From the NCBI GenBank assembly GCA_026991605.1, contig JALXBG010000169.1, positions 1 through 33,969 on the forward strand: 33,969 nucleotides of DNA, given 5' to 3'. Shown here piece by piece: positions 13,044 through 18,287 of the stretch. Position numbers and translations under genes: made by a program. Position 1 is the stretch's first letter, and each line of letters begins with the position of its first letter. The stretch is from Sulfurovum sp. (GTDB lineage: Bacteria > Campylobacterota > Campylobacteria > Campylobacterales > Sulfurovaceae). The notes beneath the pieces were generated by a model. It was given only the letters and a program-made list of their open reading frames with translations. It was not told the DNA's origin and did no database searches.

Positions 13044-13811
13044 GTGAGTATGCAACGGTTAGTCATAAAAGTTGGGTCTCATGTACTTACGCAAGATGGT
13101 ACTGTCGCCAATATTCGTATGTTGGCATTGGTACAACTTATAGCTGAACTCAAAGCCCATAAGTATGAAGTCATTCTTGTAAGCTCTGGTGCTGTAGCAG
13201 CTGGCTATACATTGTTACCTTTAGATAGAGGTAGTGTAGCTAATAAACAAGCGCTCGCTGCTATTGGTCAGCCACTTCTACTAAAGATGTATCAAGAGAA
13301 GTTTGCCAAGTTTGGACTGCTTTGTTCACAAGTACTTCTGAGTGCAGACGTTTTTGATTCTAGTAAGCATATTAAACATGCTAAAGTAGCTATAGATACA
13401 TTGTTAGAGAACAATGTTGTGCCTATTATCAATGAAAATGACACCGTGAGTGTAGAAGAGCTTGTCTTTGGAGATAATGACAGACTCTCTGCACACGTAG
13501 CACATCACTTTGATGCCAAGATGCTTATCATCCTTTCTGACATTGATGCCTTTTATGACAAAGACCCCAACCGATACAGTGATGCAAAACGTCGTGCAGT
13601 AGTCTCTGAAATCTCACAAGATGAACTAGAAGCAGAGCATACACCTAACAATGAATTTGCCACAGGTGGCATAGTTACTAAACTGCAATCGGCAGATTTC
13701 CTTATGAAACATGGTAGAGAGATGTTTCTAGCTTCAGGGTTTGAACTTAGTGATGTTAAGGCTTTTCTTGTTGAAGGTGAGCATGTGGGTGGAACGTTGT
13801 TTAAAAAATAA
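13044..13811 (+). CDS. proB: Glutamate 5-kinase (kinase domain only, no PUA domain)
   Basis: [15 protein letters not shown]...[13 protein letters not shown]...[24 protein letters not shown]; 255 aa. Confidence 0.93.
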
Positions 13812-13812
13812 T

Positions 13813-13860
13813 TTGACATTTTACTCTATAAAGTATATACTAAATTATAAATAGTATATA
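13813..13860 (+). promoter_or_regulatory. Sigma-70 promoter with overlapping operator palindrome for the RHH-PIN TA operon
   Basis: TTGACA (13813-13818), 17-bp spacer, TATACT (13836-13841); perfect 8-bp inverted repeat TATATACT-N11-AGTATATA (13834-13860) overlapping the -10. Confidence 0.75.
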
Positions 13861-13871
13861 AAGGAGCCAAG

Positions 13872-14117
13872 ATGACTGCAAAAATAGAGTATAAAAAAGA
13901 GTTGTACTCTTTACCGTCAGATGTCGTGGAGACGTTAAAAAATTATGCACAAGAGACACATAAGAAAAAAAGCCATATTGTTGCAGAGGCTATAGCTGAC
14001 TATATAGATAAAAATAGACGTAAAGAGTTGGCACAAGAAGCTAAAAAGATGTTTGGCATTATTAACGCAAATACTCCAGATATTCAAGTAATTAAAGCCA
14101 ATAGAGATGATATATGA
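13872..14117 (+). CDS. Ribbon-helix-helix (CopG-like) antitoxin
   Basis: MTAKIEYKKELYSLPSDVVETLKNYAQETHKKKSHIVAEAIADYIDKNRR: RHH pattern; ATGA overlap with the PIN gene. Confidence 0.82.
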   Translation: MTAKIEYKKELYSLPSDVVETLKNYAQETHKKKSHIVAEAIADYIDKNRRKELAQEAKKMFGIINANTPDIQVIKANRDDI

Positions 14118-14545
14118 TTAGACTTTTTATAGATGCCAATATATTTGTTGATGTAACAGATAGCAGTAGAAAATCTTCAGCAGCTAGTATTGCATTTATG
14201 GATAGTATGTTTGACAATATGGATAGGTATAAACTCTATACCTCTTGTGATTTGATAACAACTATATATTATATTACGAGAAAAAAATTAAATAATAGTG
14301 GAGCATTACAGCAGATAAAATTAATAAGTAGATTTATCTCTATTATTGAATTTGGAAACAAAGAAGTAGATGAAGCCATAGAACTTATGGAAAAAAACGA
14401 CAAATACAAAGACTTGGAAGATACCATACAGTATGTGATGGCACGCAAAGAAAAATGTGACTACATCATCACAAATGATGCAAATTTTGCTTCTGGAGAT
14501 GTGCCTGTGCTTAGTAGTGGGGAAGCTTTGAAAGAGTTACAATAG
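14114..14545 (+). CDS. PIN-domain (VapC-like) toxin
   Basis: MIRLFIDANIFVDV...CDYIITNDANFASGDVPVLSSGEAL with conserved acidic residues. Confidence 0.88.
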   Translation: MIRLFIDANIFVDVTDSSRKSSAASIAFMDSMFDNMDRYKLYTSCDLITTIYYITRKKLNNSGALQQIKLISRFISIIEFGNKEVDEAIELMEKNDKYKDLEDTIQYVMARKEKCDYIITNDANFASGDVPVLSSGEALKELQ

Positions 14546-14581
14546 ATGATTTTATTGAATTCGACAAAGCAATGAAGTTAC

Positions 14582-14606
14582 GTAGGTTGTAGTGTCTCAC
14601 TACGAC
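14582..14606 (+). repeat. REP-like element C: GTAG + GTTGTAGTG-tct-CACTACGAC
   Basis: GTAG tetranucleotide followed by a 9-bp stem with one G-T wobble and a 3-nt loop. Confidence 0.65.
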
Positions 14607-14750
14607 ATGAATTTGCACAAAGTTAAAGTGCTTGTTTTACCAGAAGATGAAGGGGATAGTTTTCCATATCTCCCACTAACCACTGCTGGACACCGGGTAA
14701 ATTAGTGAAAATGAGTTATCATTGTTACCCTGTATCACAATAAAATAAAA

Positions 14751-14803
14751 GTGCATTTTCAACGACTGACCCCAAAGTCTTGACCCCAAAGTGACCCCAA
14801 AGT
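14751..14803 (+). repeat. Left inverted-repeat end 1 (IRL1), three TGACCCCAAAGT iterations
   Basis: gtgcattttcaacgactgaccccaaagtcttgaccccaaagtgaccccaaagt; matches the reverse complement of 16521-16566 (20 of 22 in the first 22 bases). Confidence 0.8.
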
Positions 14804-14906
14804 CGATGGTAAGGATGAATGATGCTATACAACATTTTTCAATACTGATTCAAAGTAGAGACTCACATAGATGATTTTATTGAATTCAATAAAGCAATGA
14901 AGTTGC

Positions 14907-14931
14907 GTAGGTCGTAATGCCTCACTACGAC
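14907..14931 (+). repeat. REP-like element D: GTAG + GTCGTAATG-cct-CACTACGAC
   Basis: As element C, with one stem mismatch. Confidence 0.65.
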
Positions 14932-15075
14932 ATGAATTTGCATAAAGTGAAAGTGCTTGTTTTGCCAGAAGATGAAGTGGGTAGTTTTCCATATCTCCCA
15001 TTAACCACTGCTGTACACTGGGAAAATTGGTGAAAATGAGTTATCATTGTTACCCTGTATCACAATAAAATAAAA

Positions 15076-15124
15076 GTGCATTTTTAACGCCTGACCCCAA
15101 AGTTTTAAAGTTTGACCCCAAAGT
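15076..15124 (+). repeat. Left inverted-repeat end 2 (IRL2), two TGACCCCAAAGT iterations
   Basis: gtgcatttttaacgcctgaccccaaagttttaaagtttgaccccaaagt, inverted relative to 16521-16566. Confidence 0.8.
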
Positions 15125-15193
15125 TTAAAGTTTGTGATAAGTTCACGGTTTGTGTATTTATATTAGGTTAATGTATAAATGTCATGATATATT

Positions 15194-16375
15194 ATGGATA
15201 CAACTCATGCAAGACTATCAAACGGAAATATTGTAAAAGCTTACAGAGGTATGGTTAGGGAAGATGCCTTCTTTTGTTTAGGGTGTGGTGAGCAACTATA
15301 TGCAGCAGCAGGAGAAAAGAACAAAGCACACTTTAGACACAATACTCTAAAAGGTACAAAGGGTTGCAGTAATCCTGAAAGTTCTGCACATTGGATTACT
15401 AAAGAACTATTTGCGGAGCACTACAGAAAATCTACAGAATTTTTTCTATCTATCGCAGTAAGGCAAAGATGTTTCCATGATACTTGCGAACATATAGGTG
15501 AATATATTCTTAACCTAAAAGATATCTATCCTAAAGTAAAAGTTGAAGAGTCTTACGCAGGTGTTAGACCTGACTGTTTGCTTTATGATGAGGAAGACGA
15601 AAAGAAAAGATTGTTTTTTGAAGTCCTTTACACTCATCCTGTAAGTGAAGAGAAAATAAAATTGGGATACCCAATTATAGAAGTGAAAGTATTTAATGAA
15701 GCAGATATTGATAAAATTTGTAAAGTTGGAGGATTTACAACTAAAGAAAAAACATTTCAATTTTCTCACCTTAATTCAAAGGACTACTATAAAATCATAT
15801 TGTATAACAGCAAGGATTTAATACCGCAAAGTGTTAGAACGTTCGATTGTAAAGATAAGTGTATTATTGAAAAACAAAAAGCCGTTGAGAGGTTAAAAAA
15901 ACAAAGAGAGTATGCAGAAAAACTTAGAAAGGAGCAAGGCAATAAGCAAACTTCAGATATACCACAAAAAAACAATAATAAAAAGTCAAGTTCGCCGATT
16001 AAACTCATACCAATAAATGATACTAAAGCAATTGAACATATTTCTAATGCAACCAAGAAAAGAACAGCCTATACGATGAAAACTGAAATCCCCTCCATTA
16101 TTGGACAATCTATCTCGAATTATATGCACTACTATCATATACATAAAGATAAAACTCTAAAATATAATGAACTTTATATTTTAGAGGATTATGATTCTTT
16201 TATGTTTATGTCCTATAATAAAGAATATTTTGGTGCAATAAAGTATGAAGCAATTTGGCATATCTTTACTGTGAATCATAGTGCAAAACCATATAATGAC
16301 ATCTCATTTATAGTAAGCACCGAAGATGGTGGAGAGGTAAGTAAAATTATCAAAAAGATTTCTGATAGTTTTTAG
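15194..16375 (+). CDS. CoiA-like protein (putative competence/nuclease family) with long C-terminal extension
   Basis: N-terminal FFCLGCGEQLYAAAGEKNKAHFRHN plus SSAHWITKELFAEHY, ...VRPDCLLYDE...FFEVLYTHPVSEEK resembling the CoiA Zn-ribbon-like plus PD-(D/E)XK-like core; Lys-rich linker and an unrecognised C-terminal region. Confidence 0.7.
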   Translation: MDTTHARLSNGNIVKAYRGMVREDAFFCLGCGEQLYAAAGEKNKAHFRHNTLKGTKGCSNPESSAHWITKELFAEHYRKSTEFFLSIAVRQRCFHDTCEHIGEYILNLKDIYPKVKVEESYAGVRPDCLLYDEEDEKKRLFFEVLYTHPVSEEKIKLGYPIIEVKVFNEADIDKICKVGGFTTKEKTFQFSHLNSKDYYKIILYNSKDLIPQSVRTFDCKDKCIIEKQKAVERLKKQREYAEKLRKEQGNKQTSDIPQKNNNKKSSSPIKLIPINDTKAIEHISNATKKRTAYTMKTEIPSIIGQSISNYMHYYHIHKDKTLKYNELYILEDYDSFMFMSYNKEYFGAIKYEAIWHIFTVNHSAKPYNDISFIVSTEDGGEVSKIIKKISDSF

Positions 16376-16468
16376 AAATATTATTTTCATAGTTAAGTTT
16401 ATTATTTCAAGACATTTCATTTTTATGTGAAATAGCCAAAAATAATTTTCTTAGAGTTAAGTGTTGCT

Positions 16469-16496
16469 TTTCATAGTTAATTATTTAACTATGAAA
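16469..16496. repeat. Palindrome between the CoiA-like gene and right IR
   Basis: ttcatagttaa-ttat-ttaactatgaa, ~12-bp stem; arm motif tttcatagttaa also occurs at ~16386. Confidence 0.7.
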
Positions 16497-16520
16497 GATT
16501 GGCTACATAGAAAATTAAAA

Positions 16521-16566
16521 ATTAAAATTAGGGTCAAAAATTAGGGTCAGACGTTGAAAATACACT
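16521..16566 (-). repeat. Right inverted-repeat end (IRR)
   Basis: attaaaattagggtcaaaaattagggtcagacgttgaaaatacac; reverse complement gtgtattttcaacgtctgaccctaatttttgaccctaat matches IRL1/IRL2. Confidence 0.8.
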
Positions 16567-16663
16567 TTTTTAGGTATTTAAACTAATGGATAATAGCTTA
16601 TAAATTTCATTATGCCATTAGCCCTTACGGCAAAATAGTGACCTTACACATGTTTCCTTACGT

Positions 16664-16684
16664 GGTGGGTGAGACCCACCCTAC
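16664..16684 (-). repeat. REP-like element E: GTAG + GGTGGGT-ctc-ACCCACC
   Basis: Minus strand GTAG followed by a perfect 7-bp stem and 3-nt loop. Confidence 0.65.
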
Positions 16685-16740
16685 AAGACCATGCTAGAAA
16701 AAATCTCAAATACAAGATATATGTGAACTAATAAAACTCC

Positions 16741-16770
16741 TTGACATACTATAACACTATCTGTTATACT
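16741..16770 (+). promoter_or_regulatory. higBA promoter/operator
   Basis: TTGACA (16741-16746), 18-bp spacer, TATACT (16765-16770); perfect operator-like inverted repeat TATAACA-ctatc-TGTTATA (16750-16768) inside the promoter. Confidence 0.75.
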
Positions 16771-16775
16771 GTGCT

Positions 16776-17057
16776 ATGATAAAAAGTTTTGCAGATAAAG
16801 AGAGTGAACGCTCTTATAGTACAGCCAAAAGCAGAAAAATACCTTCAACGATCCACAAAGTGGCATTGAGAAAGTTGGATTATCTAAATGCTGCCCATGT
16901 TTTGGATGATTTACGTGTACCACCTGCTAATAGATTGGAAGCACTAGAAGGTGCATTGAAAGGTAAGTACTCTATCCGCATTAACAAACAGTATCGTATC
17001 GTGTTCGCTTATGAGAATGGCAATGCGTACGATGTAACAATTACAGACTACCACTAG
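16776..17057 (+). CDS. higB: HigB-family toxin
   Basis: MIKSFADKESERSYSTAKSRKIPSTIHKVALRKLDYLNAA...LRVPPANRLEALEGALKGKYSIRINKQYRIVFAYENGNAYDVTITDYH. Confidence 0.93.
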   Translation: MIKSFADKESERSYSTAKSRKIPSTIHKVALRKLDYLNAAHVLDDLRVPPANRLEALEGALKGKYSIRINKQYRIVFAYENGNAYDVTITDYH

Positions 17058-17066
17058 GAGATTAGA

Positions 17067-17372
17067 ATGATAGAACTAAACAGACAACCAACACATGCAG
17101 GGGAGATACTCAAAGAAGAGTTTCTAGAACCACTTGGTATGACACAAAGTTACTTGGCAAAAGCACTACATACCTCTTTTCGTGCCATCAATGAATTGGT
17201 CAATGAAAAAAGAGGCATCACAACAGAGATGGCACTGAAACTGGCGAAGTACTTTGGCACTTCTCCACAGTTATGGCTCAATCTACAAAATCAATTTGAT
17301 ATATATAAGGTGAGTATGAAAAAGCAAAAAGAGCTAGAAGAGATAGAAATAGGAAAATTTGAGGTAGCATAG
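17067..17372 (+). CDS. higA: HigA-family antitoxin (HTH)
   Basis: RQPTHAGEILKEEFLEPLGMTQSYLAKALHTSFRAINELVNEKRGITTEMALKLAKYFGTSPQLWLNLQ. Confidence 0.94.
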   Translation: MIELNRQPTHAGEILKEEFLEPLGMTQSYLAKALHTSFRAINELVNEKRGITTEMALKLAKYFGTSPQLWLNLQNQFDIYKVSMKKQKELEEIEIGKFEVA

Positions 17373-18287
17373 GTGAAAAATAAAATAGTTTACATGGGTA
17401 CACCCCATTATGCAAAAGAGATATTAGAGGCTTTAGTGAATGCTGAAGATATGGATGTATCATTGGTGTTAACACAGCCTGATCGTCCTGTCGGACGTAA
17501 AAAGGTTTTGACCCCACCACCTGTGAAGGTTTTGGCAGAAGAATATGATATAAAAGTATTACAGCCAAGTAGACTCTCTGAAGAAGGTATTTTTGAGGCT
17601 ATAGAAAAAGAGAAACCAGATTTTATCATCGTGGCGGCTTTTGGGCAGATATTACCTAAAAATATACTAGATATTGCACCCTGTATCAACCTGCATGCGT
17701 CGCTTTTACCACAATATAGAGGTGCATCTCCTGTACAACAGTCGCTACTCAATGGTGATGAAAAAACAGGTGTGACTTCTATGTTGATGGAAGAGGGCTT
17801 AGATACGGGTGATATACTCGAAAAAATAGAGTTTGTTATCCCTGATGATATGAGACTGCATGCTTTGATGCAACAATTGACGGAAGATGCATGTAAACTT
17901 ACTTTAAGTACCGTACGCAACTTTGAAAAGCTCATACCGCTCAAGCAAGATGAATCTCAGGCAACACTTTGTAAAAAGATTAAAAAATCTGATGGACAGA
18001 TTGATTTTGACGATGCTCAGAGTATTTATAATAAATATAGAGCATTTGAAGGATGGCCGGGGATATTTACCAATAATGGTACAAAACTTGATGAGATAGC
18101 TTTGATTGAAACTCAAAAAAACCACAAAGCTTCTGAATTGCTTGCCTTTGAAGATGAAAGCATTGTTGTGGGATGTGACAGAGGGGCATTAAAGATTGGC
18201 ACATTACAGCCAGCCTCTAAAAAAGCTATGTCTGCGAAGGCATATTGTGTAGGGAGAGGAATTAAAATTGGACATACACTATTTTGA
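17373..18287 (+). CDS. fmt: Methionyl-tRNA formyltransferase (GTG start)
   Basis: KIVYMGTPHYAKEILEALV...LTQPDRPVGRKKVLTPPPVKVLAEE...INLHASLLPQYRGASPVQQSLLNGDEKTGVT. Confidence 0.97.
   Translation: MKNKIVYMGTPHYAKEILEALVNAEDMDVSLVLTQPDRPVGRKKVLTPPPVKVLAEEYDIKVLQPSRLSEEGIFEAIEKEKPDFIIVAAFGQILPKNILDIAPCINLHASLLPQYRGASPVQQSLLNGDEKTGVTSMLMEEGLDTGDILEKIEFVIPDDMRLHALMQQLTEDACKLTLSTVRNFEKLIPLKQDESQATLCKKIKKSDGQIDFDDAQSIYNKYRAFEGWPGIFTNNGTKLDEIALIETQKNHKASELLAFEDESIVVGCDRGALKIGTLQPASKKAMSAKAYCVGRGIKIGHTLF

Follow-up and report, generated by a model that had tools for sequence, protein, structure and literature searches.

The window analysed here, a stretch of 33,969 nucleotides from Sulfurovum sp., contains a CoiA-like gene with repeats on both sides. 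We consider it very probable that these repeats are orphan terminal inverted repeats (TIRs) of the TIRYT/TIRtron kind lying in a hotspot between proB and fmt, that the CoiA-like gene is an accessory gene acquired separately and not mobilised by the TIR ends, and that the iterated short boxes at the repeats are local tandem duplications. Since the repeats face the wrong way to carry the CoiA-like gene, the region appears to be mostly an ordinary hotspot piece and not a new mobile cassette. This reading removes a false cassette. It leaves, in Sulfurovum-type Campylobacterota, a clear TIRYT family that can be counted and that has hairpin mini forms besides the full-length one; its size classes, transposase-TIR association and box duplications offer testable material on how the poorly studied Y1 transposases act.

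The repeats in the window

The inverted repeats reported around the CoiA-like gene in a first-pass annotation were readily recovered. A search with GTGYATTTTCAACGNCTGACCC at up to three mismatches gave exactly three sites in the window (shuffle mean 0.00, 100 shuffles): copy 1 at 14751-14772 on the forward strand, copy 2 at 15076-15097 on the forward strand, with one mismatch to GTGYATTTTCAACGNCTGACCC, and copy 3 at 16544-16565 on the reverse strand. The outer 22-mers are identical at 20 of 22 positions, and the inverted arms reach 29 nt at 90% (14747-14775 and 16541-16569). A PWM trained on 104 TIRs of relatives gave the three copies scores of 35.5, 33.6 and 39.9, respectively, compared to 2.2 for the best unrelated site in the window, which identifies them as TIR arms of a TIRYT-type (Y1 transposase) element. 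The GGGGWSAS motif is present in the left copies and in many relatives (GGGGTCAG / CTGACCCC), and the right copy shares with many other TIRs the form GGGTCAG without the fourth G. No fourth copy of GTGYATTTTCAACGNCTGACCC at up to three mismatches was found in this genome assembly (1.97 Mb, 180 contigs, 88.9% complete).

All three are single arms. They showed no significant folding, and they do not form the two outward, hairpin-forming arms of a non-autonomous TIRYT mini-element. The partner arms have probably decayed, and alignment revealed no convincing remnants of them. One candidate partner arm, GGGTAAATTAGTGAAAATG near 14695, resembled a TIR by eye, yet it was unranked by the PWM. A search of the window against Rfam gave no match.

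With regard to the flanking DNA, the two left copies share an origin, as both lie within a 325-bp tandem duplication on the forward strand (14542-15106; 14542-14781 and 14867-15106 are 92% identical over 240 nt), and they are thus one copy that was doubled. The right copy belongs to a 146-bp block (16541-16686) made up of the TIR, a spacer and a GTAG-headed palindrome. This block recurs in genome G110 (C69:21481-21634, 70%), where it is inverted relative to proB-fmt and has no CoiA. The TGACCC tips of the family point off the element body, whereas those in the window point inward, toward the CoiA-like gene, which is the reverse of canonical units. It follows that the body of the right unit lies to the right; that of the left unit lies leftward, inside the duplicated segment.

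The TIR family among relatives

To place these arms, TTTTCAACGNCTGACCC was run with at most one mismatch against 175 genomes of the same family. This gave 148 placed hits in 47 genomes, with 1-12 copies per genome, and a backwards control pattern gave almost zero matches in the same set. On named contigs, the exact 21-mer occurred mostly in Sulfurovum and other Campylobacterota MAGs; the TIR-carrying genomes are mostly fragmented MAGs. A lone exact copy outside Campylobacterota was seen at position 195 of a Treponema MAG contig (L038), possibly as a result of transfer or of a binning error.

The ends of the supposed cassette are found well beyond this genome, and most of their adjacent pairs face outward, unlike those in the window. 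Adjacent outward-facing (-+) pairs, with the layout GGGTCAG...CTGACCC, numbered 25 and fell into two size classes, 35-47 bp (11 pairs) and 813-843 bp (12 pairs), with two pairs outside both. Inward-facing (+-) pairs were seen seven times, at irregular spacings of 123-2152 bp and without a size class. The three mini-elements that were folded all formed long hairpins (z -7 to -16). The flanks of paired TIRs gave no firm target rule: direct flank identity (the target-site duplication test) was 2.9 of 8, and inverted-flank identity was slight at the transposase units, at 4.0 of 8 positions vs 3.2 (P 0.001), while that at the mini-elements was not significant (P 0.26). One empty-site alignment of a mini-element was plausible (G018 C268 vs G022 C38), with diverged intergenic DNA leaving the junction unfixed. 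In G081, an insertion was noted upstream of nadC, with the contig ending to its left. A neighbourhood similar to that of the window was seen on G171 C303 (L142), which carries a PIN toxin pair, an inward TIR, an accessory ORF and then a TIRYT unit.

The cognate transposase

The first-pass annotation had found no transposase ORF between the ends in the window, which agrees with our analysis, and had suggested a link to Y1/RAYT-type transposases. The full-length copy with a transposase that it envisaged exists in many relatives, where the 813-843 bp units are bounded by this sequence in inverted orientation. These 12 units hold a gene of about 260 aa encoding Y1_Tnp (PF01797) and a C-terminal HTH. 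PF01797 was matched at E 1e-13 in a sampled protein, with homologues in other units, and HTH_23, HTH_28 and HTH_38 matched residues 218-250 at E 7e-5 to 2e-4, slightly under the Pfam cut-offs. This arrangement, a Y1_Tnp and HTH gene between inverted TIRs, is seen in relatives and not in the window. Moreover, by sequence comparison GGGGTCAG fits the GGGGWSAS motif published for TIRtron TIRs, and the suggested RAYT link is therefore right.

It is also evident that the TIR follows one transposase clade, whose members share 66% identity or more with the query: the TIR is present in 17 of 19 genomes with this clade compared to 30 of 156 others (Fisher P 1.8e-9). For genomes with only more distant transposase clades no TIR association was found (P 0.29). 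Pairing, mini-elements and clade association together are what a transposase and its cognate ends would be expected to leave behind. Of the 47 TIR-carrying genomes, 30 had no detected close transposase. This assembly (88.9% complete) yielded no intact cognate transposase and has two more distant Y1_Tnp genes without these TIRs. A search by sequence for solved structures of the transposase returned none. More distant Y1 transposases (L075, L076) bear a variant TIR (TTTTCATCACCTGACCC / TTTTCACCACCTGACCC), suggesting that TIR and transposase protein change together.

Iterated GACCC boxes

Tandem (T)GACCC boxes are present at each end, as the first-pass annotation had described: three GACCCCAAAGT boxes outside copy 1 (14767-14803, forward strand, with the locus-specific tail CAAAGT), two GACCCCAAAGT boxes outside copy 2 (15092-15124, forward strand) and two GACCCTAATTTT boxes outside copy 3 (16524-16549, reverse strand, with the (T)GACCC motifs at 16531-16549). 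Their interpretation as multi-site binding ends for a transposase or recombinase did not hold, because the tails are locus-specific and the boxes are thus not a conserved multi-site binding array. In 18 of 107 TIR instances an exact GACCC recurred within 28 nt, where the background is 0.014 per 25 nt. Downstream of box 2, the next 7 nt matched those after box 1 at 6.1 of 7 positions within a locus, compared to 2.8 of 7 between shuffled loci (n = 2000, maximum tail match 4.4), and the box unit was 10-21 nt long, mostly 12-14 nt. Since the tails match within and not between loci, each set of boxes is a local tandem duplication that takes in the TIR tip and about 7 nt of flank. The left copies differ in box spacing (14 and 11 nt vs a single 21 nt), and such differing patterns within duplicated copies suggest that the boxes went on expanding after the 325-bp duplication.

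The boxes would have arisen after or during insertion, either by replication slippage or by repeated nicking near the TIR tip. The cause that we prefer is slippage, or repair where the DNA is prone to form hairpins. A more speculative possibility, which we regard as rather unlikely, is that the boxes record the reaction of the TIRYT transposase itself, which would cut the flank some 7 nt outside GACCC and prime repeated copying of GACCC with its flank, so that 11-14 nt tandem units are added at one end per new site. We know of no description of such a one-ended re-copying step for Y1 transposases.

The proB-fmt hotspot and the CoiA-like gene

The repeats and the CoiA-like gene lie in a variable interval (13812-17372) between the genes read from their sequence as proB (13044-13811) and fmt (17373-18287). 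A pair of RHH antitoxin-like and PIN toxin-like genes occupies the left side of this interval (13872-14545, forward strand), and higB-like toxin and HTH antitoxin genes occupy the right side (16776-17372, forward strand). In the closest relatives, G081 and G078, proB and fmt are adjacent and nothing of the 3.5 kb insert is found; what the empty site lacks is thus the toxin-antitoxin pairs, the TIRs and CoiA together. In other genomes the same slot is filled differently: it holds the PIN pair, a degenerate TIR (PWM 26.8) and a different ORF in G110, other genes and a degenerate TIR (PWM 14.1) in G108, and different genes again in G119, which makes proB-fmt a hotspot. Across the genus, this interval collects toxin-antitoxin pairs and accessory genes.

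The CoiA-like ORF (15194-16375, forward strand) encodes 393 aa with an N-terminal Cys-rich motif and a PD...E motif. CoiA_N was matched below the Pfam cut-off (20.8 bits vs 26.3), and the predicted protein resembles the CoiA competence family only distantly. Homologues 34-35% identical were found in G135 and G170, the gene being present in 3 of 175 genomes. Alignment with two relatives showed that the cysteines and the PD...E motif are conserved; one relative has E-x-K where the protein of the window has E-V-L-Y, and a putative PD-(D/E)XK-like nuclease is plausible. PADLOC assigned the window protein to no family. Viral contigs searched for relatives gave none, and plasmids gave many weak matches (at about 30%, with 43% of the protein covered), which represent broad CoiA-like kin only. 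The GC content is 31.6% for the gene and 37.5% for the window. No TIR was detected in the 11-13 kb surrounding the homologues in G135 and G170 (best scores < -6).

Alternative explanations

The first-pass annotation had proposed a non-autonomous passenger element of about 1.5 kb, running from 14751 or 15076 to 16566, with CoiA as cargo and a Y1 transposase acting on it in trans. Such an element would account for true transposase TIRs that are inverted around one gene, for the rarity of CoiA (3 of 175 genomes) and its lack at the same site in close relatives, and it would have some parallel in the few other inward pairs that enclose an accessory ORF (G171). However, the boxes point inward, in an orientation opposite to that of every canonical unit, and inward pairs have no size class. 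CoiA as cargo also fits poorly with the neighbouring DNA, since the conserved companion of the right TIR lies outside the proposed cassette and recurs without CoiA, and since the CoiA homologues elsewhere have no such ends. The empty sites proposed for related strains do exist in G081 and G078, but they lose the whole proB-fmt insert and not the TIR-to-TIR segment. Neither the same ends with the cargo at another place nor a precise empty site was found, and we regard the passenger element as highly improbable.

A composite transposon, in which the left and right units once moved jointly with CoiA as the middle part, is very unlikely. TIR-bearing units do flank CoiA on both sides, and the lower GC content of CoiA compared to the window is in line with this explanation, but the two units have no identified outer ends, the PIN and higBA genes further out vary separately in relatives, and a second copy is absent from all 175 genomes. 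Ends of the IS21 type carry iterated short boxes near TG...CA-like ends, and the boxes in the window recall them, so the arms might be seen as what is left of an insertion sequence of the DDE type, IS21-like or other, that had multiple terminal repeats. This identity is refuted by the genes within the paired units, as the full-length units of relatives fit and hold only the Y1_Tnp gene; the box tails are locus-specific besides, and the probability of this origin is negligible.

Comparison with known systems

TIRtrons and TIRYT proteins were named by Di Nocera et al. 2013 (PMC3733652). In their account, many TIRtron TIRs share GGGGWSAS and occur single, dimeric or grouped. A later study (PMC6006769) places most TIRYTs in TnpA-REP subclass 2.1, equal to RAYT group 1 and HTH-bearing, and states that the link of this subclass to TIRs needs confirmation. 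The window repeats match the published kind: in the relatives, inverted GGGGWSAS TIRs (here GGGGTCAG) enclose a gene for a Y1_Tnp protein of about 260 aa with a C-terminal HTH, and TIRs also occur at a distance from the gene, whether single, in dimers or in clusters. In contrast to the systems outlined there, the TIRs of the window are orphans, single arms that surround an unrelated gene, and iterated boxes with locus-specific tails are absent from the portions of the published description available.

The source of the arms in the window is very probably a family that combines a group-1-RAYT-like transposase gene of the Y1 (HUH) type, whose product has a C-terminal HTH, with GGGGTCAG-type TIRs and hairpin mini-elements of about 50 bp. 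Its transposase would recognise paired TIRs, most likely when they are folded as single-stranded DNA, and would move mini elements as well as full ones. The elements of this genome have probably decayed to single arms, one of them doubled by the 325-bp tandem duplication, and arms stand on both sides of CoiA probably because all landed in the same proB-fmt hotspot.

REPINs and REP-RAYT systems (PMC3116915, PMC2817692) likewise have pairs of inverted short repeats as hairpin mini-elements, with a presumed dependence on a Y1 transposase in trans. They differ in that the arms here are not self-palindromic GTAG REPs and have few copies per genome (1-12 at up to one mismatch). GTAG REPs are resembled by the GTAG-headed palindrome near 16655-16690 in the block adjoining the right TIR, which recurs in this genome, although it is a repeat family separate from the TIR. 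This palindromic repeat (GTAGGGTGGGTCTCACCCACCACGTAAGG..., window 16615-16690) also occurs on contigs C81, C41 and C152 of G000 and in G110, G120 and G108, and in G110 it is TIR-adjacent too.
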